A stretch of DNA of 64,000 bases, taken from Dactylorhiza incarnata. Lineage: Eukaryota; Streptophyta; Magnoliopsida; Asparagales; Orchidaceae. The notes beneath the pieces are model-generated. The model did not search any database. It worked only from the letters and a program-made list of their open reading frames with translations, and was not told the DNA's origin. Position 1 is the first letter of the stretch. Each line of letters starts with the position of its first letter. The stretch spans positions 2,046,001 through 2,110,000 of the forward strand of contig JAWHQI010000013.1 in NCBI GenBank assembly GCA_033032865.1. Direction: 5' to 3'. This document shows positions 7,034 to 64,000 of this stretch, piece by piece. The position numbers and the translations under genes were made by a program.

Positions 7034-7068
<35 letters not shown>

Positions 7069-9340: not shown

Positions 9341-9392
9341 CGTGCTTACTGTGAGTGTGATATTGTCTTATCCCATTCTTTTTTTGTTAGCT

Positions 9393-18772: not shown

Positions 18773-18803
18773 GTCCTTACTATAAGTGCAGTTTGTTGTA
18801 GTG
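18773..18803 (-). repeat. 3' TIR of the CACTA element
   Basis: Inverse of 4351-4381 with three mismatches, ending GTTTGTTGTAGTG at 18803. The ACA duplication follows. Confidence 0.95.
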
Positions 18804-31400: not shown

Positions 31401-31503
31401 TTGAATGCGGTCCTTCTTCTTCTCGATAAATGATGGTAAGAACTTCTTTTTGGGGTGATTTTGTTTGTGTGGTTTCTGGTGGTGGGATTTCAAAATTTTG
31501 GAC

Positions 31504-43054: not shown

Positions 43055-43406
43055 ATATGTGGGTGTGTCGAATCTCTCTCGATGCAACCAATACCATACT
43101 TCAAATGATTATCGACAGGACTATGCAGGTACGTCTAATCTCACTAGTCACAACTCTAAAACTGCGTCGATTTCTTCTCGAGGCATAATTTCTGCACTGA
43201 ATCTCAAAACAAAACCTTCTATTGCTCTTATGCTTAGATGTTCTTGCTGTTCTAAATTAGGACATATTGCCAAGTATTGCTGGCATAATAATGCAACACT
43301 TCTTCACCTAAGGGGGAACAATGGAAGATCATCTCATTCTTTCAAGTCTCCATATGATGATAGAAGGAAGAGACCCCAACGTGAGAGGGTCTGTATTAAT
43401 GTTTAA
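43055..43406 (+). pseudogene. Copia A gag, C-terminal part with zinc knuckle 2
   Basis: Resumes gag after Copia B in the same frame as 19671-20016. It continues the 11-residue repeat (VSNLSRCNQYH, TSNDYRQDYAG and so on), then an intact CCHC knuckle CSCCSKLGHIAKYC at about 43240-43285, then a basic tail ending at TAA 43404-43406. The pol frame overlaps it in the +1 frame. Confidence 0.88.
43065..43184 (+). repeat. 33-bp dyad array in gag of A, right part
   Basis: Units at 43065, 43098, 43131 and 43164, spaced exactly 33 bp and in phase with 19989 once Copia B and one TSD are removed. Units 1 and 4 keep clear half-sites (GTGTCGA..TCGATGC, GCGTCGA..TCGAGGC); units 2 and 3 are decayed. Confidence 0.88.
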
Positions 43407-45165
43407 TTTACATGTGCAGAGGGAAGGCTATTCAACCACAAACCAGCAGTGGTATCTGGACAGTGGATGCTCCATGCATATGACTGGAGCAAGAGAGTTG
43501 CTGGAAAATTTCAAGGCCAATGAAGGGGCCAAGGTAATCATTAGGAACTCCCACTCTGGTCAAACCAAAGGTTATGGTTTGGTCAGGATTGGAGAAATCT
43601 CCTTTGCTAAAGTAGCTTATGTTGAAGGACTTCAACATAATCTGATCAGCATTAGTTAGCTGTGTGATGGTGAATACAATGTTGTATTCACCAAGTCCTT
43701 GTGACATATAGTTAGTTCTAAGACTGATCAAACAGTTTTGACTGGTCTCAGAAAAAGTAAGGTGTATGTGGTAGACTTTGATTACACAAAGTCTGAGATC
43801 TGCTTGTTTAACTCCCAGTTAAAAAATAGTGAGTTGTGGCATAGGAGACTTAGTCATCTTAACCTTAAGACCAGAGCCAGAATTTCCAAACTGGACCTAG
43901 TCAGGGGTTTACCAAATGGTAAATTTAATAAAGACCATCCCTGTAGAGCCTGCCAACTAGGGAAGCAGATCAAAGCTTCATTCAAACCAATTGGTAAGAA
44001 TGATTCTCCTAGAATCATTTTCCTGCTACACATAGAGCTGTTTGGTCCCATCTCCACTCAAAGCTTAGCAGGGAAGTCATACACTTTATTCATTGTTGAT
44101 GATTTTTCTAGGTTCAGCAGGGTGTTCTTTCTAAAAGCTAAGTCAGGCACCTTCAAGATCCTCTCAAGATTCATTAGACAGATTCAATCTAAACTCAATA
44201 CACAGGTTGCTGTGATCAGAAGTGATCATGGCACTGAGATTGAGAATCAGTTAATGTGTAGATTCTGTGAGGATGAAGGCATCAGACAAAGCTTTTCAGC
44301 TCCTAGAACCCCCCAACAAAATGGGGTGGCTGAAAGGAGAAATAGAACCCTAATTGAATCAGGAAGAACATTGTTAGCTGAATCTAACTTGCCAAAGTCC
44401 TTCTGGGCTGAGGCAATAAATAATGCAAATTATGTTCTGAATAGAAGTCTCATCCACAAGACTAAGTTGAAAAATCCCTATGAGCTGCTGAAGGGAAAGG
44501 CATCCATAGTCACGTACTTTAGAATCTTTGGGTGTACTTGCTTTATCCTTAACAATCGGAAAAACCATCTTGCCAAATTTGACAAGAAGGATGATGATGG
44601 AATATTCTTACGATACTCTTCATCAAGCAAGGCCTATAGGTGCTTCAATAAAAGCTCTCTCAAAATTGAGGAGTCAATGCATGTAGTTTTTGATGAAACT
44701 AACATGGTGTACAAGGGGAAGGATACTTCCACCAGTTCTATCCTGCGGGAAGAACATCAACTAGCAGAGCAGGTGGAAAGGATGAGCATAGTGGATCATC
44801 CAACTGTGTGTCAGGAAAAGGGACAACAGTACATTGACACTGACTCAGGTGATGATTATGAAGAAGAAGAAGAAGAAGAGAAAACTGCAGCACCTGAGCT
44901 ACCAGTCATAGACATCATTCAAGTGAATGAGGATGAAGCACCTACTGTCTCTGAGCAGGTGGTAACTCAGGAAGAAAACTGTCCCCTAGATCATCCCACA
45001 AGATCTAGGATGACTCAAAAAGATCATCCTCCAACTCAAGTAATAGGAGATTTGACAGCAGGAGTAAAGACTAGGAAACAACTAACTTGTGAGACAATGC
45101 TGCAATGTTTTCTGTCACAATATGAACCCAAGAAATTTGAAGAAGCAGGCTATGACCCTCACTGA
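43321..45165 (+). pseudogene. Copia A protease and integrase
   Basis: Protease signature WYLDSGCSMHMTG (Asp at 43459), then GLQHNLISIS. Stops at about 43660 (TAG) and 43702 (TGA) precede the long open part from 43738. HHCC zinc part: LWHRRLSHLNLK, CRACQLGKQIKASF. Integrase acidic residues: HIELFGP at about 44032 (Glu where C and family members have Asp), VIRSDHGTE and NGVAERRN. The C-terminal block (YSSSSKAYRCFNKSS) and an acidic Glu-rich linker end at TGA 45163-45165, which replaces a Trp codon before ISA. The frame is the same as the RT part. Confidence 0.9.
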
Positions 45166-46536
45166 ATATCTGCTGTGCAAGAGGAATTGACCCAGTTTGA
45201 AAGGAACAAGGTCTGGACTTTGGTTGAGAGACCAAAGAATTACCCAGTGATTGGAACAAAGTGGGTGTTCAAGAACAAAATGGACTTAACTTGGGTCATA
45301 ATTAGAAACAAGGCTAGACTTGTGTCCCAAGGGTACATGCAAGAGGAAGGCATTGATTTTAACCAGACATTTGCCCCAGTAGCCAGACTGGAGGCAATCA
45401 GAATGTTCTTAGCATATTCTGCCCACATGAAGATAAAGGTATACCAGATGGGTGTCAAGAGTGCTTTTCTCAATGGGAAATTACAAGAAGAGGTGTATGT
45501 GGAACAACCACTAGGTTTTATCAATCCAACTTTTCCTTCTTTTGTATATAGATTTGATAAATCACTATATGGTCTAAAGCAAGCTCCAAGAGCTTGGTAT
45601 GAGACCTTGTCCACTTTTCTCCTGGAACACAAATTTGAAAGAGGAAAGGTGGATAAAACACTCTTCACAAGAGCACATAAGAATCGGCTACTACTAGTGA
45701 AAATATATGTAGATGATATTATAATTAGTTCCATAGATCAATCTCTATGCAAAAGGTTTGCTCACCTAATGCAGTCAAGATTTGAGATGAGTAGCATGGG
45801 GGAGTTATCCTACTTTCATGGTCTCCAGGTTAGAAAAAATGCAGATGCCATTTTCATATCCCAATCCAAATATACTAGAGAACTCATCAAGTGATTTGGG
45901 ATGGAAAATGCCTCTATCATGAAAACCCCCATGGCTACCAATGTTGTTTTGGATAGAGATGAAAAATGTAAGTCCTTTGATCAAAAGACTTACAAAGCAG
46001 CCATTGACTCTCATCTCTACCTAACAGCTAGCCGACCTGATATAATGTTTGCAACTTGTATCTATGCAATATTTCAGGTTGACCCAAAGGAATCCCACAT
46101 GAGTTCTGTCAAAAGAATTCTAAGATATCTAAAGGGTACTCCTGAACTTGGCTTATGGAATCCAGCTAAATCTGGATTTGAATTGATAGGGTATTCAGAT
46201 GCAGACTATGCTGGATGCAGGCTTGATAGAAAAAGCACTTCAAGAACATGTCAGTTCCTAGGTGGTAGACTGATATCAAGGTTTAGCAAGAAGCAAACCA
46301 CAGTATCCACTTCTACAGTTGAAGTTGGGTATATAACTGCAGGAAGCTGATGTTCACAAATTTTGTGGAAGCAAAATCAGTTGTCAGATTAAAACTTTTC
46401 CCTTGCCAATTCCACAATCTATTGTGATAGCTCTAGTGCAATATCAATTGTTTCCAATCCTGTTCTCCACATCAAAACTAAGCGCATAGAGATAAGGCAC
46501 CACTTTCTCAGGGACAATGTAGAGAAGGGTAAGATC
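45166..46536 (+). pseudogene. Copia A reverse transcriptase and RNase H, truncated
   Basis: In frame with the integrase: [32 protein letters not shown] (Gly where Asp is usual after QM, a palm catalytic position), [40 protein letters not shown] at 45892 replaces an Arg codon. The RNase H part follows (YSDADYAGCRLDRKSTS, then TVEVGYITAGS and TGA at 46348), continuing as HHFLRDNVEKGKI to 46536. The last RNase H residues and the whole 3' end of A are missing from the window because element D begins here. Confidence 0.9.
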
Positions 46537-46546
46537 TGTTGGATCT

Positions 46547-47959
46547 TGAGGTGCCCTTAGAGGGGGTGAATAAGGGTTTTACAAACTTTAAACTTTTATA
46601 GAACACTTTTGATATTTTGGTCGAAGTAAGTTAAATCAAAAGTAAAGAGATAATGAAATTAGAAATGAAATCAATTTTATTAAACAAGAAAAGACATGAT
46701 TATCATTTGTAAAATTGAAAACAAAATCTGGTTTCAATGACGCTAGAAATCGAAGCGAATAATATGAAAACCCTTTTTGTTTTCTATACCGACTCATATA
46801 CCCACGAAGCGGTTGGCTTTAGCTGATTTCTCCCTAGATATATCCTCAAGCCGCTCTAGTCAATCTATCACCAGAAAGGCCTCGAGCACCCCCTAGATCT
46901 ACTCCCTAGACCCAGTCGCCAACACGAGGCGAATTCCTCCCTAAGTCCTACCTAAACCTAGTCGCCAACACAAGGCGAATTCACAAATCGATTACAAAGA
47001 TGAAATAAAGGACAAATACAAAATACAAATATAAAACGCCCTATGAGATAATCTGAATGAGACGCCAAAGAATCGTTGAAGATCGTTGAAGTCCAAGCGT
47101 GCGTTCTTCGCGTTGAGTTAGCGTGTTGATCGAAGCCTCCTTTGATTCCTCCTTTTGAAATATGAGTGGGAGATGTGTTTGTCTGGAAATACGGCCCTCA
47201 CAAAGTTTCTGAAGTGCTGGAATAGGGCTCTTGGCAATCAGTTGTAAGAGAAGTCGAAATTATCCAATTTATAGACTTTGAGCTAACGCCGGCGTTAAGT
47301 GCTAACGCCTGGCATTGACCATGTATAGCAATATATTGATGGCTTGGATCTTCAGAAGAGGAAGGAGATTCTGCACTTTAGGAAATGTTTTATTTTAGGC
47401 AATATCAACGCCGGCGTTAAGGATAACGCGGGCATTGGGCAAATCATTCCTAAAGTTCCTCCTACAATTACGACTGCTTTCTCCTTGCCAAATTCTTCAA
47501 CAGGATAGCGCCCAGCGTTAAGACTAACGCTTGGCATTGAGATTCTTTCTTTAATTTAGCTGGCACGCCATTTCGTCGAACAACATCTTTGTCAAACGTC
47601 TCATTTCATCAAACGCACTTTCATTTCTTCGAACGCTACTCATTTCGTTTAACGTCAATTTATTTCGTCGAACGGCCTCCCATTTTGACAACCTCCATTT
47701 CGTCAAACGAAAATTTTGTCGAACGCATTTGGTCGAACGCCATTTTTGTCTAGTGCTAATGCCCAGCGTTAAGGTTAACGCCTGGCGTTAAACATATTTC
47801 AATCCTTCAGCTTGTGGTTAGTGTCAGACCATTGTTGCAACAACCTGGTGTCATAACTGTCGAAACCTGCATGCTAAAAACATAATGGCAAACAAGATCA
47901 AATACAAGTAGGATTTGTTATTCTCAAATCAAAGGGATGCGGAAAACCATGTTCCAACA
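46547..47959 (-). repeat. 3' LTR of Copia D
   Basis: Plus view: TGAGGTGCCCTTAGAGGGGG (the poly-G block of this LTR type) to ATGTTCCAACA, followed by ATCTCCCCC, the complement of a polypurine tract. So D is minus-oriented and inserted in RNase H of A, with target flank GATCT at 46542-46546. A start at 46537 (TGTTGG) is a less likely alternative. A TATA box (minus CTATAAATT) is at 47274-47266, with dyads of the form GCGTTA-N4/5-TAACGC upstream (47283-47540, 47755-47795). Confidence 0.8.
47283..47795 (-). promoter_or_regulatory. dyad motifs in LTR D (GCGTTA-N4/5-TAACGC)
   Basis: GCGTTA-AGTGC-TAACGC near 47290, GCGTTA-AGGA-TAACGC near 47412, GCGTTA-AGAC-TAACGC near 47515 and GCGTTA-AGGT-TAACGC near 47768. 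They are often flanked by GCCTGGCA or CCGGCG. The region between 47570 and 47745 holds single TTCGTCGAACG-type half-sites. All lie upstream of the TATA box on the minus strand. Confidence 0.75.
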
Positions 47960-50847
47960 ATCTCCCCCTTTTGATAATAACAAATCCAATAGAGATAAAT
48001 CAGATCCATAGTTAATGAATTTGTGTTTTTATAAAGATATGTGACACTCAACAATTATAAGATAATGATAGGAATTATAGTTCATTGATCATTGTGCTCC
48101 CCCTACAAAGATGCTCCCCCTTAGTGTATACTCCCATTAACTAGATACATGCTCCCCCTTAATTTAGTGAATCCTACTCCGTTAATTAATATGATTTAGC
48201 ATTTTATTCTCCCCCTTTGTTATTAGCAAAAGAGGGTGGAGTGAAACAAAACTAGAATAATGAAGACAAAAGTTGGGACATAACTAAGAGAGGATTAAGA
48301 GTTTTGTGTAAACATAAAGTAAGTCATGATCGAGCTAAGGGAGAGAGTAGCACAGTAGAAAAAATTTATGATAGGCATGAAAGAACATTATTCAAAGATT
48401 ATACCACAGGAATGTAATCACTTGCTTTGCAAATTAATTTTTAAAGAAGAATATTACTTATTAAAAAAGATGCAATAGTTTTCGACAAGCACAAGTGAAG
48501 AAAGACCAAAGAAGTGAGCAAGATAAACCATGGTAAACGAAGTACATAATCAAAAGAGAAATGCGGAAAACAAAAACAAAACAAATAAGAGTAGTATTTT
48601 TGTTATAGTTTGACCATTCCAACAATATGTCTAGACTCTTCGCATTTGAGCATTTTAACTTTGAAAATTTTCATAACAAATTGGCAAGCATGATTTAGCA
48701 TATTCAAAAAGATAATAACAACAATGTAACCAATTCATATTTCAAGTAAAGAAAACATTGTAGAAATCATACATTGCAATCTAGTGCTTTTACTTGAGTT
48801 TTTAGAGAATTATGTAATTTTGCATTAGGATCCAATTCTCATGAGTAGAAGCTTTATTAAAAACAATGATGTGTGCATAAGGTGTTTTGATAAAATTATA
48901 CAAGTGAAATAATCAAAACACATGACACATGTAATGAAATAGTAACAACAATATTAAGATTGTAATCTTATAATTACTTTCACACATCACATCTAGAATA
49001 AAATATCAAAGCACAAAACATAAGTACATCTACGAAGGTGCTTTGCCCACACAATGCTCATTAAGACTTATCAGGGAGCGAAGTAGTGCTTGGGGGATCA
49101 CATAAGCATTTTTTATAAGATTTTATTTTTAGTGATCCAATGTACAAATAGAAGTGATAAAAGGAAATATGTTTGCACAAGACACTTTACAATTCTTTCT
49201 AAGGTGCTCAACCTCACAATGCTCATTAAGACTTATCAGGAAGGTGAGTATGCTTGGTGGAGTTATCTTTGGCTTTTTATTTCAGATTTTTATTTTGGGC
49301 CAAAGGTCTCCGAATTCACTTGTTGTTGCAATCATTAATGTTATTGAAATAACACTTCTATATCATGCATGAAATTTATTTTTTGAAAGACGGTGTTGGT
49401 AATTTAGGCATACAACTTAATATGTTAAAACTATTACACTACACAATCATTCAAGACTAAGATTAAGAGCACATGTAGATTACCAAAATAGTGAGTGTAT
49501 AATTCATTGATTACCATAAAGCATTACTCATACTTAGAGGCATGCTAGGCAATCATACACAATTATATATAGACTATTTCATTGCACATACTCAGATTAA
49601 GATCAAAGCATGATGATAAAAATAACGTTTAAGAAATTTGAAATTAAAATTAGACATTGAAGGCTATCTTTAAGTGTATGCCAAAAACAATTTTGACCTT
49701 TTGAAACAAAAATAACTAAGATGTTCGTTCTTGTGAAAATTTATAGTCAAACTATAATTTTGTAAAGAGTTAATGCAAAACAAATAACAAAAACATATTT
49801 TTGAGCATTTTGAATTATTTAATTTTTTTTGTATTTTGGAAGAAAACAACAAAATTAATAACCAAATAATTTGAAATCAGACACAATAAACTGAGAAAAA
49901 CATTGGAAAAATATCAGAAATAGTGCAGAGAAAGTAGAATTTCAATCTAAAAAAAACTAACGCCTGGCGTTAACTGGTTAACGCCGAGACAGTACGCTTT
50001 TTGTGGAGATTTTTTTGAAAAACTTTTCTTTGGCATAGATAGTATGTATATAGTCCTTAGTGAAGAAATTTCAGAGAAGTTGGAAATGATTAGAAGGCTA
50101 TATAAGCATGTTTTATTTGTTCAAAAATGATTTTTATATTTTTATTTGGTTTTCATATATTTGTGACTTACAAGATCATTAGAGCTCAAAAATGATAAAG
50201 AATGAAAAATACAAGATAAGCATGTTCGATCAAAAACAAGAATGCATGAGCATGTTCGATCGATAATAAGAATGCATGAATAATATAATCATAAAGAGTG
50301 CATGCAAAATATATGAAATAGGAATGTCCTATATTATAATACCCTAACTGTATGCCTACACATTAGCCCCGTACTAAGTGACGGATGGGCACGAGGAGCT
50401 GCACACATGCCATAGGATGGGGTGTTAATCCCATATGCACACACTTGAGAATGCTCAACCTAGCACTCTTTCCCCCAGTGTCTCGCAAGGCCACACTAGA
50501 ACCCTCCCCGGTTAAGGAAAATACATGACATAGAGGTTAGGTCTTCTAATGCATACAATCCTATGCCCTCGCTATTGTGAGACACATAATGTGGGTGAAC
50601 GATCATGGACATCCTAAGCATTTTGTACTATGGAAACAATTTAAAGTCACATAGTTATTTTATCTTTCAATTTTTCTACTTTCAGATGGATTCATTATGG
50701 CATTATTGATAACTAACATGAATGATAATATTTATTAGTTGGTAATGCTAGTATGATGAGTTCATATTATGCCATAAGAATATTGCATATTTTTTATATT
50801 GATAGAAATTCAATTTGAAGACCTAGAATTAAGTGATGATATGATTT
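47960..50847 (-). mobile_element. internal 3' part of Copia D, no recognisable ORF
   Basis: It starts with a polypurine tract (minus AAAAGGGGGAGAT) and several CTCCCCC clusters at 48096-48215, then 2.6 kb of AT-rich DNA. One further dyad, GCGTTA-ACTGGT-TAACGC, lies at about 49970-49985 and links it to the D LTR. Direct repeats: CACAATGCTCATTAAGACTT at 49050 and 49215; GCATGTTCGATC units at about 50220 and 50250. No gag, pol or ORF2 homology is seen. The region is cut at 50848 by element E, so D's 5' part should lie beyond the window. Confidence 0.6.
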
Positions 50848-52183
50848 TGAAAGTGCAACCTCACTAGAATTCTCTAGAGGGGGGGGGGTGAATAGAGATT
50901 TAAAATATTTTTTTGCAAAGTTAATAATTATATATATATATGTGTGTAGAGATCACAGATTAGTGCTTCCCACACACCAACAAGAATTAAACAAGTAAAG
51001 AAAATAAATGCAAGAAGAAAAATCACAGCACAACACAAAGAAATATAGTTGTTCCCCAAACTTTGGGTAGTCCACTCTTCTACCCCCTTGGTAGGAATTC
51101 ACTATCTTGCACTGAGTCTTTTGATAAGGAGACTCTTAGAACCACCCTGAGTCTTTTGATAAGGAGACTCTTAGAACCAACTGAGTCTTTTGAAAAGGAG
51201 ACTCTTAGAACCAGTACAACTGAATTTTTTGAAGAGAGATTCTAAAAACTCTTTTACAGTATTTGAGAGTGAAATGAATGTAAGGAAGAAAGAGAAATAA
51301 TATAAAGACAAGAAGGAATCTTCTTCCTAGCAAGAAGGTTGGAAGCACAAGAAGTAGTGAATGAAATCTCTTCTATAGTGAGAAGGAGATTTGCAGCTTT
51401 TCTCTCTTTTAGTGAGAGCTATCAGAGTTTGCAGCAGAATTGCTTCAGAAGCAGGAGAAGATGGAAGCTTGATGGTTGTTGCAGGACTATTTCTCAATTC
51501 TCTCTTTTTCACTTGGGAGCTTTTCCTCTTTTTCAATATGTATATGGTCGATCACTTCTCTATCTTCTCTGCCGACCTCCTTGTTATTTTATAGCTCTGT
51601 CCATTCAAATAATACTATAGGAGGATAATTGATTAGCAGACAGAGAAATAGAAAGATAGAAATATTTCCATAATAATTATATCAATAGAAGGAAAGAATT
51701 CATTCTGATTTCAAATAATGTCCATAATGGTTTTAATCAAATTAGTCAAGAATCTATTAGAGGAAAAGAATGATTCAGAACGGCTATAAAGAATAAATTG
51801 ATTCCATTAAAATCAGATCTATAAAAGAAGAAAAGAGATCTGGCGATTTTTGAATGAAACATAGAAATCGACGTGCGTCGATTACTATTCGACGTAAACG
51901 TCTAATTCGTCCTGGTTGGACGTCGAGAGAAGAATAAGGAATGTGCGTCGACTAAGGTGCATCGAATTCTCAAGATGCGTCGACTCGAAGTCAGAGCTAC
52001 GTCGATATAGGATACGTCGAATTCTTCTTAAAGTTACTTCGACTCATTCTGAAAGGAACGTCGACACCACTTCGACGTTGCGTTGAATACTATTCAACGC
52101 ATATTTACTTAACCTTGATTTTCCTTTCTTAGAATTCATATTCAACTCATTTTCAGGGGTTAAGAGAAATCATTTTCCCAACA
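50848..52183 (-). repeat. 3' LTR of Copia E
   Basis: 1336 bp. Plus view TGAAAGTGCAACCTCACTAG to TTTTCCCAACA. The minus strand has dyads at about 52110-51870, then TATA CTATAAAATAA (51594-51584), then a leader with three tandem units of GAGTCTTTTGATAAGGAGAC (51114-51215) and the poly-G/TCTAGAG block near the end. The polypurine tract (minus AGGGGGAGAT) abuts it at 52184. Confidence 0.93.
51870..52110 (-). promoter_or_regulatory. dyad array in LTR E (GCGTCGA-N7-TCGACGC)
   Basis: Units with a 7-bp spacer: GCGTCGA-TTACTAT-TCGACGT near 51882, ACGTCGA-CACCACT-TCGACGT near 52058 and the perfect GCGTTGA-ATACTAT-TCAACGC near 52081. More decayed ones lie between. The code is the same as in the gag array of this element. 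Confidence 0.82.
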
Positions 52184-52393: not shown

Positions 52394-54172
52394 TTATAGT
52401 GAATACAACTGTTTTAAGAGAGGGGGTTGCTCCTTTTCAGCACCAGGTAGTTCACTCAACTCCCCCTGAGTTACATCAGTTTGCTCCCCCTGGGATGGAA
52501 CTTCCTTGGTTGCTTCTACTTCTGCCTCTTCAGTTTCTTTTTCAGTTCCAGCTTCAGACATATCAGTACCTTGCCACTGAGCTCCTATTTCACCTATCAC
52601 AGTATCTAGCTCCCCCTGAGTTTCAGCTTCTTTAGTTTTCTCACCATCTGCCACATCTTCCTTTTCAACTTCATTTTCTGCCCTGCTTGCCTCCCCTTGT
52701 AACAATACCACTTGATTTGCAGCCTCTCTTGCTATATTGAGTACCTCTATTGTTTGTTCTTGAATATATAGCTCAGGTACTCTCTCATTTCCAATTGACT
52801 TATGGGAGAGAGATTTAGGAGTGGAGGGCTGCTCTTCATCTAGCTTCTCCCCCTTCTTGACCTTCTTGGCCAAGGAGGTTAAGAAAGTCCTGGTTACTCT
52901 AGAGGAAGAGAGAGAGGTCTTCAGACTTTGCACAGAGGCACTAACCCCATCTATTTGGGTGTGCATGTGTAGGATGGAGGAATGAATCTGGGAGCAGTGT
53001 TCATCCAGCATTGCTTAGAATGTTTGAGCTGCTAATGCAATGCACTGAGTGAGGAGAGCTTCAGTGGATGCAGATGGTTCATGTTGTGGTTGGTGATGAG
53101 GATAGAGTGGTGGAGGTGGTGATGAAGCTGGAGAGAAGTAAGTTGATACATGAGGTATGGGTGATAAAGGAGGTGGAGAGGATGAGAAAGTATGAGGAGG
53201 AAGAGATGGAGAAACTACTGTTTGAGCAGGTGTTTGAGAAGATGTAGGTAGAGGAGGGGTTGTGAGGGTGGTAGAGACTAGTGGAGTAGATGATGGTGGT
53301 AGAGAAGGATTGTCTCTTTGAGGAGGAGGAGGAGGAGATGGATGAACAGGAGAGTTAGGAGGAGATGGAGTCTTTTCAGGAATGGAACCAGGCTTAGGAA
53401 TTTGCCTGGTCCATTTGGAGAATAGAGCTATTGACATCCTTTTCCCTGGAGGAATAGGAATTCCTTTTGACCTACATAGTTCAGGGAAGGAGTGGAAGAG
53501 TACTTGACTCATAATCCTCATATATGCATTTTTTTTGTGTAAGTATTTAGAGCTTATCATCTTGAGCAAGCATGTGGCCCAGTCCACCTTCTTCTTCAGC
53601 ACCGGGCCCCCATGATATTCAGTTGCTACTTGGGCACTGCATCATGGGCTGAGGTCTTGCATAGCAGGATTTTTCCTACTATATCTGCTAGCAGTCTGTA
53701 CTCCTCAGAAAAGTCTATTTTCTTTAGATGGATTGGTCTATCTTTTGAAAACTTCATGGTGGTTAGCAGATGCTTGATTTCATCAGGTGTGAGGTCTATA
53801 GATTCATTACCTAATAAGGGAGTGATGAAGACTTATTTAGTTATTCTTTAGAAGCTGATTTTCTTTTCCTATTTGCTTTGAACAAAGATAATATTAGGGT
53901 GTACCTAATGGAAGATCAAAGGTTGTCCTAATGTGTTCTGCAGATATTGAGACAGGTGTCTTATGGATTGTTCCTTGGATTTCTCCTTGTTCAGATATCT
54001 GAACATGAGTCATCAGCTCTGTGAGCTCTGTTTCCAGGAGCTTGTATCTTGTGGAGATGAGCTTATCTAGTCCAGCTTCAGTGAACAGAGCAATGATGCT
54101 CTTGTAGTTTTCTGCGGTGGCTTGGAAGGATTCAAGGTCAATGTCAAAACCAGAGTTGGTTTTGGGAGCCAT
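52394..54172 (-). pseudogene. 3' ORF (ORF2, env-like position) of Copia E
   Basis: ATG at 54172 (MAPKTNSGFDIDLESF). The pieces 54172-53894, 53602-53015 and 53011-52394 share one frame. The stretch between (PDEIKHLLTTMKFSKDRPIH, SEEYRLLADIVGKILLCKTS) is readable with a stop near 53620 and likely indels. A long Pro/Ser/Thr-rich segment (53390-53070) separates an N-terminal globular part (EHIRTTFDLP, as in plant transposon proteins) from a C-terminal acidic, coiled-coil-like part. One TAA at 53015 divides the last two pieces. No clear signal peptide or membrane span. The function is unknown; the position matches ORF2 of element C. Confidence 0.68.
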
Positions 54173-54289
54173 TTTAGGTCAGTGAGAGAGAGAGAGGAAG
54201 AAATCGGCTGGACTGAGGAGCAAGAAGGATGAAGGATGCAGAGTAGTGAAGGTTTCTAACTGAAGATTCTTTTTAAGTCAGGTGAAACG

Positions 54290-54520
54290 TCAAAATGCGA
54301 CACTATTCGAGGCTTATTCGGTACTTCAGTGGATGTGACCAAAAATATTTTAGTATTGCGGCTCATTTTCATGAAATCGACGTTACATCGAGTGGAATTC
54401 GACATAAGCATCGATACAGCTCGCGTTAAGATGCTAGGGTTTCGTATCGACATATGCGTCGATTGTAATCGACGCATGCGTCGATTTCACTTATTGAGTT
54501 GAGTCATCGATGGTGCGTCG
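54290..54520 (-). repeat. dyad tract between gag and ORF2 of Copia E
   Basis: ACATCGA-GTGGAAT-TCGACAT (7-bp spacer) near 54384 and GCGTCGA-TTGTAA-TCGACGC (6-bp) near 54458, plus several lone half-sites. It lies just upstream of ORF2 on the minus strand, a place where a second promoter or splice signal could act, but this is inference. Confidence 0.7.
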
Positions 54521-54645
54521 ACGTTACTTTTGATTTTCCTGAAAAATTCTAGGTGTTTATTTCTTTTTATCTCTTCCTAATCCTAAAGGTTTCTAAGTTA
54601 GTCTTGGACTAATTTTCACATATAGTTTGATTGATTGTGCCAACA

Positions 54646-56946
54646 TTATTTGGCAAGGTGGCCAGTTTTGTTACATATGTAGCACTTGATTATCTTAGTA
54701 TTGTGAGATTTTGAGTTTAGAGAGGGATAGAAGTGTTGATTAGGATAGAAAGTTTGATTTAGATGGGAATTTTGGTTAGGATAGAAAGTATGGTTAGGAT
54801 AGAGGTGTTGATTAGGATAGAAATCATGATTAGGATGAATGGGTCCTGAATAGGGGTTAAGATGGAGGGTTTTTGGAGGATAGGCACTTAAGTTGCTCTG
54901 ATTTTGTATGCGTTGATATCTATTCGACGTATGTTGATAGTTGCGTTGATTTATATTCGGCGCTTTCTCCAGATAGCGTTGATCTGGTATCGACGCATGA
55001 ACAAAGTTGCGTCGATTTGATGTCGACGTACTTTTATTCAAGCGTCGAGTTGAGGTCGAGGCATCTGAGAGATTGCGTCGAGTAAAATTCGACGCACTAT
55101 CATTCATATGTCGATATGAAGTCGACGCAACTGTATCTTCATAAATTTCCTTTTTCCCTTTTTATGATTTGGCTCTTTTATGTATTGTTTCTTTTGGCAT
55201 AATTGCTTCTTCAGATGAAGTTTGAGAGTCATCAGCTGAATAATATGATATTTCATCAAATTGTTTTAATTCCTTGAGGGAGTCTTCTTCCTTATTTAGT
55301 GAGTCTTTTTCTTGGTTTGATTTGCTAGGTTTGGTGAATTTTACAGGGATCATCCAAGCAGGTTTGTTGGATGGAATTTGGCTGGTTGAGGGATCATCCC
55401 CTAGACCAAGATTTTTATGTCTCCTTGTTTGTTGTTCAGTGATTTCCTTGAGAGTTTGGCTTCTCATTTTTATTGACTCTTCAAAAGCTTTTGCCTGGGA
55501 TACCTTATCCTTAAGGAGCTGGTTTTCTATTCTAGCCCTTTCTACCTCCTTTTATATGATGTTAGCCCTTAATTCATAATTTTTAGAGCATTTAACTTCT
55601 CGATTTCTCTGGTTTTTAGCCATATTAATTTATTCTTTTAGATCCTTAATTTCTTGGTTAGCTTTTAGTTGATCTAGACACATTCCCATAAAATCATTTC
55701 TGAAATTATCACTTTGAAAATCTATTTCATCAAAAATGCTTACCTCATCCTTATCCTCAGATTCCTCTATGAGAATAAGGCTATTTTCTCTTTCATCTTT
55801 AGAAGATATGCTTTCTTCTGATCCTGTCTCACTCCATGATTTAGCATCATCATCTATCTTTGAGCCTTCAAGTGCCATTAAGCATAGGTCTTCTTGCTTA
55901 GGCTCTTCATTGTCACTCTTAGAAGAGGAGCTTCCCTCAGAGTCTGTTTCACTCCATGCTTCTGCAATAAAGCCTCTTTCTTTCTTCTTCCCCTTTTTCT
56001 TGAGATCTTTCTTTTTCAGATCTTTCTTTGTCTCAGCATTTTCTGGACATTCTGGGGCAATATGTCCAGGTTTCCTGTAAGAATAACAAATAATTTTTTT
56101 AGTAGGAGTTTTGTCATACCTTGGTTTTGACTCTCTCCTTCTTGATCCATCTGTCCTGACCCATTTCTTGAATTTTCTGGCCAGGAAACTAAATAGTTCT
56201 TCTTCAGTGACAGAGCTTCCTTCTTCTGTTGCTTTTAATGCAATGTTCCTGTCTTTTGAAGAAGTTGGGGTGTTTTCTCTTCTCTTCTTCTCTTCTCTGG
56301 TTTTCAGCAGTTGCTCATAGGATCTGAGTTTTCCTAAGAGAGCATTTGTTGAAATTTCCCTTTGTCCTCTTGTGTCTCTTATTGCCCATATCCTTGAGTC
56401 CAATGAACTTGGGAGACTCATCAGCAATTTGTCATTGATCTCTGTGAGAGAGATTTCTCTATCCAAGTCCCTTAGTTGATTGATGATCAGACTGAATCTG
56501 TCATACATCTCAGAGATGCTTTCTTCATTCTTCTTTTGGAAGTTCTCATATTGAGAGATCAATAGAGCTTTCCTATCTTTCCTTTCATCAGCACTTCCTT
56601 CTACCATCTTTATGAGAGCCTCCCAAATTTCTTTGGCTGATTCACAATCAACAACACTTTGAAAGATTTCATCAGAGAGGGTTGAGACCAGAATATTTAC
56701 AGCTTTTGCATCACATGTTCCTGCCTTCTTCTCTTCAACTGTCCACTCAGCCTTTGGGACAAGTGTTTGAGTCACATCACCACTTGAGTCTTTTCTATAA
56801 GGCTTGGGAGGACCTGTCAAGATAACATTAAATAAATCTTCATCAATAGAATTCATATAAATCCTAATTCTTGTTTTCCAAACTGCAAACTTTTCAAGAT
56901 TGCACATTGGTGGTCTGGTGGAAGCATAATCTTTGATTTGTGCCAT
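54646..56946 (-). pseudogene. Copia E gag, ending at the pol deletion
   Basis: ATG at 56946 (MAQIKDYASTRPP). One frame runs to 54646 with only a few stops (near 55630, 55550, 55162 and 55140). Domains: gag core (NSIDEDLFNVILTGPP, AKEIWEALIKMVEG, MYDRFSLIINQLRDLD), knuckle 1 CYSYRKPGHIAPEC (Tyr replaces the second Cys), Lys-rich and Ser/Glu-rich segments, coiled coil, the 11-residue repeat coded by the 33-bp dyad array (55128-54910), Tyr/Pro/Asn-rich repeats (FYPNQ, LYPNH), and knuckle 2 CYICNKTGHLAK, cut before its last Cys by TAA. Sister elements have pol after this knuckle; here the 3' region follows at once. Confidence 0.9.
54910..55128 (-). repeat. 33-bp dyad array inside gag of Copia E
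   Basis: Seven units start at 54910, 54943, 54976, 55009, 55042, 55075 and 55108, exactly 33 bp apart. Each has a 21-bp dyad: 7-bp half-site, 7-bp spacer, inverse half-site. The cleanest is 55075-55095 (GCGTCGA-GTAAAAT-TCGACGC). On the minus strand each unit encodes 11 residues, [AT]-[SP]-x-x-x-[RQ]-R plus four. Confidence 0.95.
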
Positions 56947-57033
56947 GTGAAAACTAATTTTTAAAAATATATATATAAAAATAAGAGGTAGGATCTTTTT
57001 GATCAAGGAGTTAACCTTTTTAGATCAACCTGG

Positions 57034-57064: not shown

Positions 57065-57339
57065 TGATGAGTCCTGATCATATACACATTTATGGACTCA
57101 TCTGGGCCGCTTTTCGAGTCATTCCACTGCACTTTAGCCCTGTTTCAGCTCATATTTGATATTCCATGCTAAGTGCACCTCTAGGCCCGTTTTTGGTGTT
57201 ATTTCATGTTCTTCATTTTTATTAGTTTTCATGGATTGTTAAGTGCCACTTTCAGTGGCTGGATTCGTGGTTGTGCTGGAACAGGAGTCGTGCGGGTGTT
57301 CCCGGTACAATTCTGTACAGGAACACTGTGCACGATCAC

Positions 57340-57660
57340 GGTTTCTATTGCGCACGACCACTGGTCGTGCGCCGCTGATCGTGTGCACTTAACCCTATTT
57401 TTTGAGTTCTGTCTCGGACAGTGCGCACGACCACCAATGATATTTCTCACAACCACCGGTCGTGCGCCGCTGTTCGTGCGCACTTAACATCAATTTTATG
57501 AGTTCTGTTTCGACCAGTGCGCACGACCACCGGTCGTGCGCCACTGGTCGTGCGAACATGGTATTTTATAAATTTCTTACATTGCAGGCTCCACCCAGGC
57601 AGGCGCACAATCACAGAACTCTAGCGCGCATGACCTTTGGTCGTGTGCCAATGACCGTGC
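57340..57660 (+). promoter_or_regulatory. GCACGACC/GGTCGTGC dyad array in U3 of element T
   Basis: Examples: GCGCACGACC-ACT-GGTCGTGCGC near 57352 and CGCACGACC-ACC-GGTCGTGCG near 57520, plus single arms. The 3' LTR has the array with one more 22-bp unit (about 62340-62362) and fewer C-to-T changes. The array ends about 20 bp before the TATA box. Confidence 0.85.
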
Positions 57661-57680
57661 GCACTATTTATTCCAGCGCC

Positions 57681-57690
57681 TATAAATATT
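57681..57690 (+). promoter_or_regulatory. TATA box of element T 5' LTR
   Basis: TATAAATATT follows the dyad array; the identical box in the 3' LTR is at 62514-62523. Confidence 0.7.
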
Positions 57691-58702
57691 CCTGCTCGCG
57701 ATTTAGGTCAGGATCTTCCGCATTTCTTCCGCCCAGCTCCGCCGTTGCGCCCCTTCCGCAGGTTTTTCGCCCTCTAGGCTCCCTCCATCATCCAAGGGCT
57801 TCAAGGAGGAGATTCTACACTCATCTTCATCGCCAAGGAAGGATTTCTTCGCATCGGACGTGGCCGGATTATAAAACGCTGGAGAAGACGGGTCCATTGG
57901 GAGGTGTGACAGCCCTCCTCTACCCCAGACGATAGTTGGGACCGAGCTAGGATGCGGATTGACAACCCGGTGCTTCCTACCGTGAATCTACAACGAGCCT
58001 CTGGATTCGGTCGTATCTCTTACCTTTTTCTCTTCCTTATGTTGATGTAATGTTTGTAATCTCTATATTTTGATGATGCATGCTATGAACTATGCTTTGT
58101 AATGCTTATTTCATTTATTTGGAATTATTTAGTTCATATGTGTTAATGAGGTGCGCCGCCATCCATTTTCCACTCCACCACCGTGTCCGGTGCCGCACTA
58201 GCAATTGCTAGTGGCGTGCTTGTCGACGAGGTGTTTGCGACCCTCATTCTGTTAGCCTACTCGTCCATCCGCCTATCAAAGCGTGGCATCGCGGCCCGTG
58301 TAATCCATCCCGCTTAACGAAGCAGCGCGCTCAAGGCCTGCACAGTTCGATTCCGCTTGCCTACTCGTCCATCCGCCCTTGCGACGCAGCGCGCTCAAGG
58401 CCTGCCTAGTCTCCATCCCTCCAAGCGAAGCACTGCATAGCGGAATTGCATAGGAGTAATTTAAGTTGTTTTCTTTTATTTTCCACAAACCGATTCCCCC
58501 ATTTCCGCATCCATCCGCTCGAAAGGACTTCAATCTCAAGTCCTTCCTCGATAATAAACTCCACCTTACTATTTTCCTTTGAGATCGATACTTGGGGATT
58601 CATTCCCATTTTATATTACTTGAACGATCTGTACACTGTCGTTTCGTGCCGCATTCTTACTACCGCCTATAGCGGTGTGCTAAGATTTGCGCAACAAGTT
58701 AT

Positions 58703-58720
58703 TGGCGCCGTTGCCGGGGA
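58703..58720 (+). other. primer-binding site of element T
   Basis: TGGCGCCGTTGCCGGGGA, six bases after the LTR end. This is the tRNA-complement type common to Athila/Tat-like plant Gypsy elements, not the initiator-Met type of the Copia elements in this window. Confidence 0.88.
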
Positions 58721-58910
58721 ACACAGTCGTGTGAGTTTTCTGGAGAGGGAGAACCTGAGAGAGAAGCCCTTCCATTTGTAAATTGCATTCCTTTATTTTA
58801 TTTCCTCATATTTTGTTTCCTGTTTTATATTAGGTTGCTTTAGTAATTTATGTTAGGTGTAGTATTTTGCACAATAGCATTTTAATTTTGAATCGTATTA
58901 TCTTCACACT

Positions 58911-59177
58911 ATGTGGGCACATCTCAATATCCGTTGCCGTTGGTGTAGAGATACCTCCCACTCTAGTGATGAATGCCCTACGGAGAATAGTAGGCATAAT
59001 TCTTATAGCCCAGCATATGGAGCACCGACTTTGTCTGGTACTCCATATGGTGCGCGTAAGTCTTATGGATACTCTGCTGAGCCTTTACCATCATACTCTT
59101 TTCGGCTTCAGCCCCCGCTGTGCCAAAGAAGCCCGCAAGGCAGTGCCGGTTTTGTCGGAGCACTGATCATGTCTTGA
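58911..59177 (+). CDS. gag-like fragment with CCHC knuckle 1 of element T
   Basis: 88 residues from ATG 58911. Residues 9-22, CRWCRDTSHSSDEC, fit C-x2-C-x4-H-x4-C exactly. The rest is Ser/Tyr/Pro-rich. It overlaps the next ORF in another frame, and the second knuckle begins just after the overlap, so an original single ORF probably has one indel near 59100-59120. Nucleic-acid binding of the element RNA is inferred from the knuckle. Confidence 0.65.
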   Translation: MWAHLNIRCRWCRDTSHSSDECPTENSRHNSYSPAYGAPTLSGTPYGARKSYGYSAEPLPSYSFRLQPPLCQRSPQGSAGFVGALIMS

Positions 59178-60145
59178 AGGACTGTGCCGAGTATCTTCGC
59201 CAATTGGACGAGGATGACGAGCCGGATATCTGGATCGTCCCAACTCCTAACTCTGGCGGCACACCTTCAACATCCGGTTATGTGTCTTTGTCACCTTCAC
59301 ATCTTGAAGGGTATGGCATGGACACGGTCACCGGATGTGCGGCTGATCTATGCACCGACATTGCTGAGCCTATTCTCCATGTGCATCCACCACCTCTAGT
59401 GGATTCGATTCTTTGTGAGGATTCGGTGCTCGACTTTTATCCGAGCACTATTCCTCTCCCTGTTGTGCATACTACACTCATCTCTGATGACATTGTTGAT
59501 GATGTGTTGCAAGAGGAGGCTGGTGACTTTAGTGTCATGCCTGTTCCTATGGAGGAGGACAACCTTCCAGGTGAAGAGGAGTTTTCCTCAACACCGGTGG
59601 AGGAAGTCCAAATCTTAGGCATGACCACTGTTGATCCCGCCGAACCTTGTAGCATTGAGGACAATGCAAACATTATTTTACTTCCCCAACCTGATGGGAG
59701 TGAGACCGGGATCACTCCCCCGATTGATGTTTATTTATGTTCTTCGTCTTCTTTATTTCTTGATCCCCTTCCTTCATCTGAGTCTGTGCAGGTTGAATCT
59801 TCACAGGTACTTCAGGAGGACTTGGAGCTTTTTGCTCAAGTCAATGATGAGAGCATCCTCTCATGTGAGGAGGTTTATTCCCCCTCCGTAGAGGAAGCTC
59901 CACTCATTGCCTTCGCCTCCTGCTGCCTCCCTGTTGACGACTCCTTGCTAGGCAAGGATATTTTTGGTGAGTTGAGTGAGGATATCTCCTCCTCTTCTTA
60001 CTTTCTTTTCCCTCTACCTATGTCAAGCAGGTATTATTATTTAGGTAGAGGGGTGACTGCCTTATCTCCGTATCGGTACCAGCTACCGAAACGGATAATG
60101 GAGCAGTTACCTGTGCATTTTCTTTTTCATAGGCCCATTAGCTAG
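59120..60145 (+). CDS. gag-like acidic ORF with CCHC knuckle 2 of element T
   Basis: 341 residues. Residues 9-22, CRFCRSTDHVLKDC, form a second perfect CCHC knuckle with the same spacing as the first. The remaining 310 residues are strongly acidic and rich in Ser, Pro, Asp and Val, with many Leu/Pro pairs and no recognised domain. The reading ends at TAG after HRPIS. No capsid-like region is seen upstream. The long open frame in a non-autonomous element suggests coding constraint until recently. It could instead be the remnant of a larger gag-pol. Confidence 0.7.
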   Translation: MPKKPARQCRFCRSTDHVLKDCAEYLRQLDEDDEPDIWIVPTPNSGGTPSTSGYVSLSPSHLEGYGMDTVTGCAADLCTDIAEPILHVHPPPLVDSILCEDSVLDFYPSTIPLPVVHTTLISDDIVDDVLQEEAGDFSVMPVPMEEDNLPGEEEFSSTPVEEVQILGMTTVDPAEPCSIEDNANIILLPQPDGSETGITPPIDVYLCSSSSLFLDPLPSSESVQVESSQVLQEDLELFAQVNDESILSCEEVYSPSVEEAPLIAFASCCLPVDDSLLGKDIFGELSEDISSSSYFLFPLPMSSRYYYLGRGVTALSPYRYQLPKRIMEQLPVHFLFHRPIS

Positions 60146-61875
60146 AACCTTCATGTTTTTAAATAAGTCGTGCTGGGATGACAATAACCCCAGTAGTTAT
60201 CTTCTTTTTCTTGCATTTTTAATTTATCTAATCCTGCGTAGTTAGTTTATTTTATTTCAGCGTTTCTCTTTTCTTTTGTTTTTGCGGAGTTGGCCCCTGC
60301 AGGTATTCTTCTGGTTGGGTGCTGCAGCTTGGTCTAGAGTTAATCGCCAATCTTCTGGTATGCTCACTTGCTGAGCATTGGGTACTCTCTCCCCTTAGCG
60401 CTATTTTGATTTTCCTGTCATATATTATGCGGATTGTTTAGTTTAAGTCTGGGGGAGAGTAGTTTTGTTTACCCGCTCACGTGCACTATTGCACTGCATA
60501 CTAGAAGATTTCATTTAAAATGTTTTGTTTATTTTCATTCCATGCTTCATACACCACTTCACCCGCATAAGCGCACGCTTACATGATTGTTACGTTTCCG
60601 AATAAATTATTTTGGTTTGGAATGTGAATTAGGATGTTAGCTTAGGAATTACTATTGGGAGTGCGATGTTGACTCGCGTAGTGTTCTAGTCGCATCCGCA
60701 TGCTACAGTAGAATTTGAGTAAATTAGATTATCTCTATGCGTTTAACTTATGATTAGTATTTTTGCGTAGTTTTAGATTTGTTATACTCAAATGGTGAAT
60801 GTGAACGAAATTGGTGATAACCCGGTGTTGTGTGTATACGAGCACTAGTTGTGTGTTGCCTGAGTCGGGAGGAAGGTTTACCTTTCTCGTGGGCTAAGAA
60901 CTTGCCCCAAACGACTCTTGAAGCATGGGTGCGAGCGATTCTTCGAGTTAAATGTGATGTAGGCCACCTTTTGGCTAGTTTGAGCCTTGTCTTTCCCTAT
61001 CCTATTCGCTCACCTTTGCAAGCCAACATTTGCGCCTACCACTTCTTTGTTTCAGCTCCTCCTCCATTCACCAAATCCTGAAGCTCATCCTACTTTCGCA
61101 ACCAAATAGCTGTTTAACTGTACTCTTGTTCTATTGGTGTGATGTTTGGAATCTATGTGATGTGAAGGAAAAATAATTTTTATTTGCTGATTATGAACCA
61201 ACCGGAGGATAAGAAAAAGAAGAAAAATAGGTTATTGAAATGAAATTCTAAAAAAAAATTGTATTGAAAAGAAATCCTCCCGAGTGTAATAGAAAATCTG
61301 TTGGTATTTGTGAAGTAGGCCGTGTGCACACCTAGTTTTTATGATAAGTCTGGGGGTGTGTCACACGAGCTTTGTTCTTGGCTTTGTTGGGTGCAGCGTT
61401 CCGTTGACTCAATTTGGTTGCGTAGCCTTCGTGTTTATCCTTGAATATCATACCGCAACCTAAGCCCCAAAATAATCCTAAAGTCCTATTGATTTATCTC
61501 ATGAGTTTGCTAGCGCCGTGGAGAGAGTGTGACCGGGCAAGCTTATGGTTCCCGACGTTGATGGATTTCAGCGGACTTATTCCTGAACCCCGATCTTGTG
61601 CAACACCCTCCTTAGTGGCTTGTTACTTTCACACCGGGCACGATCGTTCAAGTTCTTCACAATTCACCAACTGAGTATTGATAAATCTTTATTTATGATC
61701 TAATACTTTTGTAAGTTAGTTAGCATAGTTAGAATCTCTTTTTACTAAATTTCTATTAGCATGCTTTTGTTACTTCGCACCGTACTCCTTTGTGTAATTT
61801 CCTTTGTTAACTGCCATTTTCACACTCCGCCGAATTCGTTTGCTCGGGACGAGCAAACAGGTAAGTCTGGGGGTG
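60146..61875 (+). other. 3' non-coding part of element T with repeated PPT-like motifs
   Basis: About 1.7 kb without a supported gene. TAAGTCTGGGGG occurs three times: about 60441 (followed by AGAG), 61343 and 61863, the last abutting the 3' LTR and serving as PPT. A block of about 130 bp at 61485-61612 is strongly conserved with 353-480 of the old relative. The small ORF at 60830-61081 is not convincing. Confidence 0.65.
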
Positions 61876-63529
61876 TGATGAGTCCTGATCATATACACAT
61901 TTATGAACTCATCTGGGCCGCTTTTCAAGTCATTCCACTGCACTTTAGCCCTGTTTCAGCTCATATTTGATATTCCATGCTAAGTGCACCTCTAGGCCCG
62001 TTTTTGGTGTTATTTCATGTTCTTCATTTTTAGTAGTTTTCATGGATTGTTAAGTGCCACTTTCAGTGGCTGGATTCGTGGTTGTGCTGGAACAGGAGTC
62101 ATGCGGGTGTTCCCGGTACAATTCTGTACAGGAACACTGCGCACGATCACTGTTTCTATTGCGCACGACCACTGGTCGTGCACCGCTGATCGTGTGCACT
62201 TAACCCTATTTTTTGAGTTCTGTCTCGGACAGTGCGCACGACCACCAACGATATTGCGCACGACCACCGGTCGTGCGCCACTGTTCGTGCGCACTTAACA
62301 TCAATTTTATGAGTTCGATTTCGACCAGTGCGCACGACCACCTACGATAGTGCGCACGACCACCGGTCGTGCGCCACTGGTCGTGCGAACATGGTATTTT
62401 ATAAATTTCTTACATTGCAGGCTCCACCCAGGCAGGCGCACGATCACAGAACTCCAGCGCGCACGACCATTGGTCGTGCGCCAATGACCGTGCGCACTGT
62501 TTATTCCAGCGCCTATAAATATTCCTGCTCGCGATTTAGGTCGGGATCTTCCGCATTTCTTCCGCCCAGCTCCGCCGTTCCGCCCCTTCCGCAGGTTTTT
62601 CGCCCCCTAGGCCCCCTCCATCATCCAAGGGCTTCAAGGAGGAGATTCTACACTCATATTCATCGCCAAGGAAGGATTTCTTCGCATCGGACGTGGCCGG
62701 ATTGTAAAATGCTGGAGAAGACGGGTCCATTGGGAGGTGTGACAGCCCTCCTCTACCCCGGACGATAGTTGGGACCGAGCTAGGACGCGGATTTACAACC
62801 CGGTGCTTCCTACCGTGAATCTACAATGAGCCTCCGGATTCGGTCGTATCTCTTGCCTTTTTCTCTTCCTTATGTTGATGTAATGTTTGTAATCTCTATA
62901 TTTTGATGATGTATGCTATGAACTATGCTTTGTAATGCTTATTTCATTTATTTGGAATTATTTAGTTCATATGTGTTAATGAGGTGCGCCGCCATCCATT
63001 TTCCACTCCACCGCCGTGTCCGGTGCCGCACTAGCAATTGCTAGTGGCGTGCTTGTCGACGAGGTGTTTGCGACCCTCATTCTGTTAGCCTACTCGTCCA
63101 TCCGCCTATCGAAGCGTGGCATCGCGGCCCGTGTAATCCATCCCGCATAACGAAGCAGCGCGCTCAAGGCCTGCACAGTTCGATTCCGCTTGCCTACTCG
63201 TCCATCCGCCCTTGCGACGCAGCGCGCTCAAGGCCTGCCTAGTCTCCATCCCGACAAGCGAAGCACTGCATAGCGGCATTGCATAGGAGTAATTTAAGTT
63301 GTTTTCTTTTATTTTCCACAAACCAAATCCCCCATTTCCGCATCCATCCGCTCGAAAGGACTTCAATCTCAAGTCCTTCCTCGATAATAAACTCCACCTT
63401 ACTGTGTTCCTTTGAGGTCGATACTTGGGGATTCATTCCCATTTTATATTACTTGAACGATCGGTACACTGCCATTTCGTGCCGCATTCTTACTACCGCC
63501 TATAGCGGTGTGCTAAGATTTGCGCAACA
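61876..63529 (+). repeat. 3' LTR of element T
   Basis: 1654 bp. It differs from the 5' LTR by about 48 substitutions and a 22-bp extra dyad unit near 62340. It ends GCGCAACA; TTAAC follows. Confidence 0.93.
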
Positions 63530-64000
63530 TTAACCTCACTAGAATTCTCTAGAGGGGGGGGGGGGTGAATAGAGATTTAAAATATTTTTGTGCAAAGTTA
63601 ATAATTATATATATATATGTGTGTAGAGATCACAGATTAGTGCTTCCCACACACCAACAAGAATTAAACAAGTAAAGAAAATAAATGCAAGAAGAAAAAT
63701 CACAGCACAACACAAAGAAATATAGTGGTTCCCCAAACTTTGGGTAGTCCACTCTTCTACCCCCTTGGTAGGAATTCACTATCTTGCACTGAGTCTTTTG
63801 ATAAGGAGACTCTTAGAACCACCCTGAGTCTTTTGATAAGGAGACTCTTAGAACCAACTTAGTCTTTTGAAAAGGAGACTCTTAGAACCAGTACAACTGA
63901 ATTTTTTGAAGAGAGATTCTAAAAACTCTTTTACAGTATTTGAGAGTGAAATGAATGTAAGGAAGAAAGAGAAATAATATAAAGACAAGAAGGAATCTTC
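63530..64000 (-). repeat. 5' LTR of Copia E, right of element T, cut by the window end
   Basis: After the TTAAC duplication, CTCACTAGAATTCTCTAGAG and onward matches 50860-51324 of the 3' LTR with only about three substitutions plus a poly-G length change. The dyad array and TATA box of this LTR lie beyond 64000. Confidence 0.93.

Follow-up and report, generated by a model that had tools for sequence, protein, structure and literature searches.

The window analysed here, a stretch of 64,000 nucleotides, is plant-type DNA built of nested transposable elements. Its minus strand carries element E, a Sirevirus-like Copia element whose 3′ LTR occupies 50855–52183 (ends approximate) and whose partial 5′ LTR (63532–64000, minus strand) is truncated by the end of the window. 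The LTR pair is 98.9% identical over 469 bp (50857–51323 compared with 63532–64000), and a polypurine tract adjoins the 5′ end of the 3′ LTR. Another LTR element (57065–63529; LTR pair 95.8% identical) has been inserted where the 5′ LTR of E meets gag, and a reading of its ends suggests that it is flanked by a TTAAC duplication. Both LTRs of this nested element carry GCGCACGACC-NN-GGTCGTGCGC palindromes before a TATA-like stretch.

The gag of E extends from 57006 to about 54646, as judged from PF14223 and a zinc knuckle. It includes an N-terminal ORF (55630–57006, minus strand; PF14223, 78.3 bits) and a further open piece (54646–55107, minus strand) that contains the start of a second zinc knuckle, whose zf-CCHC score of 19.2 bits is just below the cut-off of 20.8. 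The gene is broken. Three in-frame stops, including the one that ends the N-terminal ORF, were counted from the start of that ORF to the array described below, and one more lies within the second zinc knuckle. Past gag, the order is a linker of about 470 bp, the 3′ ORF pieces (52394–54178, minus strand), the polypurine tract and the 3′ LTR. The 3′ ORF pieces stand where Sireviruses have their ENV gene and are identified by position only; no Pfam match was found in the five pieces of this ORF that were scanned, and additional ORFs known from plant elements were compared for context (PMC7264820). No pol domain was found in five scanned pieces between gag and the 3′ LTR, and no reverse transcriptase was found in E. 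Two further features agree with Sirevirus traits. Multiple polypurine tracts are represented by AGGGGGAG, which occurs upstream of the 3′ LTR at 52186, 52460, 52484, 52610 and 52847 on the E strand and 16 times in the window (1.09 expected). A polyC stretch near the 3′ end of the LTR, matched to the published description by reading, is present at 50866–50890 in E and at 3410–3436 in element A, which is described below.

Within the gag frame of E, upstream of the second zinc knuckle, lies an array of seven GCGTCGA-N7-TCGACGC dyads with a 33-bp period (54910–55128, minus strand). The preliminary description had reported seven such units, exact or close to this form, set exactly 33 bp apart in the gag frame. 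We reproduced both the frame and the unit starts (54910, 54943, 54976, 55009, 55042, 55075 and 55108; every step exactly 33 bp), and the arms match the consensus at 89 of 98 bases. Each unit consists of a 21-bp dyad, made of two 7-bp half-sites and a 7-bp spacer, followed by a 12-bp linker. Because 33 bp is equal to 11 codons, the gag reading frame runs through the array. With some variation, the units read GCG TCG Axx xxx xxT CGA CGC in the gag sense, followed by four linker codons, and they encode an 11-residue repeat, typically A/T-S-x-x-x-R/Q-R-x-x-x-x. Six of the seven units fall in the open gag piece at 54646–55107. Just past the array, a second tandem repeat in the gag frame (54725–54836) consists of 18/36-bp units that encode FYPNQ/LYPNH-type repeats.

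A matching array was found in a second, older element, A, on the plus strand. When the window was scanned for N7 dyads with at most three mismatches, 21 were obtained, including three (19923, 19956 and 19989) and two (43065 and 43164) that belong to A. The former are units 1–3 of the A gag array (19923–20016) and the latter fall among units 4–7 (43060–43184). The array is split by an LTR element at 20017–43054 (LTR pair 91.9% identical) that is flanked by CTATG and ATATG. If one flank copy is dropped, the linker of unit 3 becomes 7 + 5 = 12 bases long, so that the register continues and the positions total seven. Units 5 and 6 (43098 and 43131) have decayed, with 5 mismatches in 14 bases each, and were counted because they are in register. 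The consensus is matched at 80 of 98 bases in the A array, compared with 89 of 98 in the E array. The gag of A is also interrupted by 4358–18805, a DNA-transposon-rich stretch with transposon proteins. Downstream of its array A has its own zinc knuckle, followed by integrase and reverse transcriptase (RVT_2), and a protease-like motif (43196–43500) is in a different frame from gag and its zinc knuckle. The LTR of A, which was read directly (1795–3450, plus strand, ends approximate), is about 82% identical to the E LTR over 3049–3281. The gag sequences of A and E are 72.8% identical over 929 bp, and the same residue is encoded in 244 of 392 aligned codons. The array occupies the same place in gag in both elements, in the same 33-bp register and with the same count of seven. 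It had been considered beforehand that the array might be limited to the E copy; the seven matching positions in A indicate that it predates the A/E split, and a recent local minisatellite is thereby ruled out.

The half-sites and their spacing had been claimed to hold while the spacers vary freely, and the 14 units of the two arrays bear this out. Mean pair identity was 0.76 for half-sites, against 0.40 for spacers and 0.37 for linkers. When only A-versus-E pairs were taken, the corresponding values were 0.76, 0.38 and 0.38, with 0.29 expected from composition. None of 100,000 random sets of 14 columns reached the half-site mean, either for all pairs or for A–E pairs. The non-CpG columns 4, 7, 15 and 18 were conserved as well (0.74, 1.0, 1.0 and 0.86, respectively), so the CpG mutation rate alone is not a sufficient explanation. 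The outermost columns, 1 and 21, were weaker (0.51 and 0.52). Column 15, which falls on the third position of codon 5, is T in all 14 units though five different residues (T, S, Y, N and D) are encoded there, and column 7 is A in all 14, within codons for N, T and I. Because both gag copies are broken, part of the variation among units is post-insertion decay.

We then compared the units with a synonymous null, in which the residues were kept and the codons were drawn from usage in other gag sequence. The units matched the dyad at 169 of 196 bases, against an expectation of 100.6 (SD 4.3), and none of 20,000 synonymous shuffles reached the observed value. CpG codons accounted for 41 of the 154 codons in the units and for none of the 895 codons in the sampled gag (55630–57006, 54646–54897 and 18867–19922). 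At fourfold sites, the same codon was used in 71 of 94 unit comparisons at half-site codons 1, 2, 6 and 7 and in 4 of 13 at spacer and linker codons; these comparisons are not independent, since the 14 units represent two related elements. For A/E-shared residues in the rest of gag, the corresponding count was 34 of 75. Degenerate positions are thus more conserved in the half-sites than in the spacers and linkers, a comparison that the preliminary description had proposed. Neither of the two outcomes that it had named as refuting was observed, and its inference of selection on DNA or RNA beyond the protein is backed, for two elements, by the synonymous null and the degenerate sites. Together, the synonymous null and column 15 rule out an explanation by the protein alone. 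That the half-sites have been kept at the nucleotide level beyond what the protein requires, with the DNA or RNA probably under selection, is well supported by the sequences of these two elements.

TQT is the binding motif of light chain 8. It is present in none of the 14 unit translations, and light-chain-8 binding repeats in Gag, an interaction named for Sireviruses (PMC2829016), were rejected.

The array codons had also been described as CpG-rich against the rest of gag, and the contrast proved to be stronger than claimed: the N-terminal gag ORF of E (55630–57006) contains no CpG, against 45.3 expected. Element E has 82 CpGs, of which 75 lie within three motif clusters that together span 931 bp (27 in 51850–52176, 25 in 54176–54560 and 23 in the gag array). 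The remaining 7 are spread over 5277 bp, where 186.6 would be expected. Similarly, A has 49 CpGs in its clusters (692 bp) and 18 in the other 6522 bp, where 241.8 would be expected. The gag of a further element, C, is also CpG-depleted (5 versus 84.1 expected). The nested element at 57065–63529 is at 0.93 of expectation and shows no loss, unlike the surrounding E, and the loss is milder in 4358–18805 (0.77 of expectation). Outside the clusters, TpG and CpA were modestly raised (1.01 and 1.24 in E, 1.22 and 1.16 in A), so that deamination is a partial account of the CpG loss. The confinement of CpGs to the motif clusters ties the motif to the question of how such elements meet DNA methylation.

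In the 3′ LTR of E, half-sites are clustered in U3 upstream of a TATA-like box, CTATAAAATA (51866–52102, minus strand). The region 51850–52120 contains 16 half-sites with at most two mismatches, and these form three N7 dyads, compared with 0.19 expected; 0 of 2000 random placements reached three. The remaining half-sites are single or direct. The earlier statement that the same dyad fills the LTR was therefore correct in that the motif is shared and occurs there as N7 dyads, but not for the other half-sites of the region. The second non-coding cluster of E, at about 54285–54525 (minus strand), is in the internal linker before the 3′ ORF, in the gap of about 470 bp between gag and the 3′ ORF pieces, and is not part of the LTR. 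No excess of N7 dyads was detected in this linker cluster (1 versus 0.20 expected; 369 of 2000 placements). The U3 of the A LTR contains a cluster of 27 half-sites (1975–2395, plus strand) with six N7 dyads, against 0.38 expected and with none of 2000 random placements reaching that number.

Same-strand half-sites exactly 22 bp apart were in excess in the LTRs of A (8 versus 0.76 expected), E (4 versus 0.46) and a further element, B (3 versus 0.46; 17 of 2000), and not significantly so in the E linker. A Fourier test of the non-coding clusters gave no significant periodicity at 10.5 or 11.0 bp (564 and 133 of 1000, respectively), and the best period in a scan of 60–199 tenths of a base was 11.5 (31 of 1000). 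Helical phasing consequently rests only on the exact 22-bp spacings.

The half-site extends to other elements. The LTR of C carries the same half-site (26534–26888, minus strand) with a dyad spacer of 15 bp, and four such dyads were found where 0.21 were expected (0 of 2000). Because C has LTR half-sites but only the 5 gag CpGs mentioned above, the gag array is not a general feature. We counted CGTCGA in 15 regions of the window against 200 shuffles each. Enrichment was found for the gag array, the E linker and the LTRs of A, B (both), C and E, where none of the 200 shuffles reached the observed count, and 4358–18805 was also somewhat enriched (5 versus 1.59 expected; 3 of 200). Enrichment was not clear in the LTR of element F (18 of 200) and was absent in the LTR of the nested element (105 of 200) and in the pol of A. 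Since the same half-site core is enriched in the LTRs of other elements at a different dyad spacing, a host-encoded reader is more likely. These results suggest one common reader across families, more simply a host protein; a possible alternative is that C inherited the core from an ancestor in common with A and E.

The repeated motifs of Sireviruses are palindromic, CpG-rich, present in high copy and family-specific, and they occupy the upper half of the LTR, ahead of the TATA box (Bousios et al. 2010, PMC2829016). They also occur in the linker before ENV and at the beginning of ENV; gag is not among the places listed in section 9 of that paper. Such motifs are known from non-coding parts of Sireviruses. 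Element E resembles the published elements in having palindromic repeated motifs in the LTR before a TATA-like box. A half-site cluster also precedes its 3′ ORF, which stands at the place of ENV and gave no Pfam match in the pieces scanned. It differs in the core, since 12 of 13 published motifs have a CGG-CCG core, Tnd-1 being the one without it (Table 3 of PMC2829016), whereas the core here is GCGTCGA/TCGACGC with a 7-bp dyad spacer. It also differs in having a third cluster inside gag, in a fixed 33-bp register. Searches of open-licence papers turned up no report of motif clusters inside gag. The LTR and linker places match those of the published Sirevirus motifs, and the cluster inside gag is new. 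In a selection study of maize Sireviruses, gag was among the less conserved genes (PMC9073684).

We interpret the gag array, with a probability of about 0.85, as the third cluster of a Sirevirus-type repeated motif belonging to the element itself, this one embedded in coding sequence. The motif is a 7-bp half-site of consensus RCGTCGA, arranged mostly as an N7 dyad, and it also occupies the linker that precedes the 3′ ORF and the part of U3 that lies upstream of the TATA-like box. How the cluster acts is less certain. Action as DNA-binding sites appears to be the likeliest mechanism, and we give it an even chance. Each dyad would then be bound as double-stranded DNA by a dimeric, sequence-specific factor, which the host more likely encodes, and the array would extend the LTR control region into the gene, as either an enhancer or an anti-silencing platform, presumably kept by selection despite also encoding protein. 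That many half-sites in the E LTR are direct or single suits the recognition of double-stranded half-sites.

Two known systems were compared with the array. VANC targets are short motifs that are repeated many times within a VANDAL family and diverge between families, and whose presumed reader is a sequence-specific protein (PMC5735166, PMC10398659). The elements described here likewise carry many copies of an element-specific short motif. However, the VANDAL reader, which belongs to an anti-silencing system that removes methylation, is element-encoded and binds non-coding regions, whereas one of the three clusters of E is coding, and the class of element is different. The everted repeats (ER7) of auxin response factors have facing half-sites with a TGTC core and 11 bp between the four-base cores (PMC6207667). 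The half-sites of the array also face each other at this distance, but their core is CGTC. Because the spacing fits and the core does not, auxin response factor sites were rejected: none of the 14 gag units has TGTC on the left together with GACA on the right, the former being present in one unit and the latter in two. An internal promoter before pol was rejected as well, as no TATA-like box was found after the A array in 43060–43500 and the only one near the E array lies inside the array itself.

The main, though fairly unlikely, alternative to the DNA-binding reading is that what has been kept is an RNA or single-stranded DNA structure, a 219-nt fold-back around the fourth unit that would act in packaging, dimerisation, gag/pol recoding or small-RNA production. 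Both gag arrays do fold into long fold-backs. When the half-sites were kept and the rest was shuffled in place, 0 of 150 shuffles folded as well as the native E array (−81.7 kcal/mol for 219 nt, versus −64.7, SD 4.4) and 0 of 150 as well as the native A array (−80.2 versus −65.6, SD 4.5). The same was true of 400 shuffles in E and 400 in A in which both the protein and the half-sites were kept. The linker pairing 1–6, 2–5, 3–4 ranked first of 15 matchings in both arrays. Consistent with a role in recoding or another RNA function, the protease-like motif of A is out of the gag frame, and Sireviruses have been reported to carry an inverted repeat where gag meets pol (PMC2829016). Because both arrays fold beyond what the protein and the half-sites require, the RNA may have a role of its own, and the extra folding is a point against a DNA-only reading, which does not predict it.

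Other results go against the fold-back. The 23 dyads in the sense orientation contain 7 G-T pairs and 20 A-C mismatches, with 4 non-consensus standard pairs, which is the opposite of what a sense hairpin would lead one to expect, and the antisense strand of the E array (54898–55128) is far more stable than the sense strand (−122.3 versus −81.7 kcal/mol, 219 nt). The fold-back could also stem from an inverted duplication, given that the E linkers read as one block and then as that block inverted. Between A and E the units align best when offset by one unit (0.45), so the fold centres of the two arrays may not correspond. In A the first two matchings are only 0.5 kcal/mol apart, and the right-hand part of the A array alone is ordinary in folding (20 of 200 shuffles). 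The native linker order ranked 64th of 720 in E and 5th of 720 in A, and the native spacer order ranked 69th and 1st of 300, respectively. Among the other clusters, the number of shuffles out of 150 that folded as well was 104 for the E LTR, 1 for the E linker and 24 for the C LTR, and for two overlapping stretches of the A LTR it was 81 and 0; extra folding was therefore lacking in two of the three LTR stretches of A and E.

It is improbable that the array is a bait or target of host silencing, in which CpG-rich palindromes would draw small RNAs and methylation and would persist through recombination or mutation with no benefit to the element. Palindromic LTR regions are described as hotspots of small-RNA mapping in maize Sireviruses (PMC5311732), and the motif clusters stand out by their CpG content from the rest of the element, which is CpG-poor. 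Methylated CpGs in silenced DNA would be expected to decay, however, yet the half-sites are the conserved part, including the non-CpG columns 7 and 15. Still less probable is that the array is an ordinary minisatellite in coding sequence, giving a Ser/Arg-rich repeat of 11 residues that is young or is kept for Gag function: although its period is exactly 33 bp and in frame, residues 1, 2 and 6–7 are partly conserved and stop-making changes in CGA were not seen, its age follows from the matching array in A, its spacers and linkers are near random, its CpG codons are absent from the other sampled gag codons and the same dyad is found in the non-coding LTR.

Returning to the array as a coding-embedded cluster of the regulatory motif, we tentatively consider a fairly unlikely dual-coding scenario. 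Some Sireviruses may have moved into gag the motif that is recognised in their promoter. A DNA-binding factor would there keep the body of the element open or drive it from within; binding would preserve these CpGs in an element that has lost almost all of the rest, and the same stretch may also act as an RNA fold-back. In such a scenario, 33 bp would be the shortest step that is both a multiple of 11 bp, half the 22-bp step of the LTR lattice, and divisible into codons. Because the array is in a coding frame, its degenerate codon sites offer a way to tell selection on the protein apart from selection on DNA or RNA, in many copies per genome.

We also searched viral contigs for relatives. None was confirmed among the 78 and 50 stretches obtained with gag and integrase queries, respectively. 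A five-TCGA pattern matched 29 stretches; their best dyads had 2–3 mismatches, and several of these lay at 11-bp steps in repetitive sequence.

Other palindromic or repeated sequences were observed in the window. Element F, represented by another Sirevirus-like LTR and linker (46535–47955 and 49957–49973), has its own palindrome near TTAACGCC-N-GGCGTTAA, with five matches of at most three mismatches in the window, compared with 0.07 expected. The linker of C (31101–31430) contains a cluster of TTTCTCGAGAAA-like palindromes, a motif distinct from the GCGTCGA half-sites of the C LTR. Finally, a segment of ~110–200 bp around AACTTTTGTGTTGAACACTTTT recurs several times within 5564–7951, in both direct and inverted orientation.
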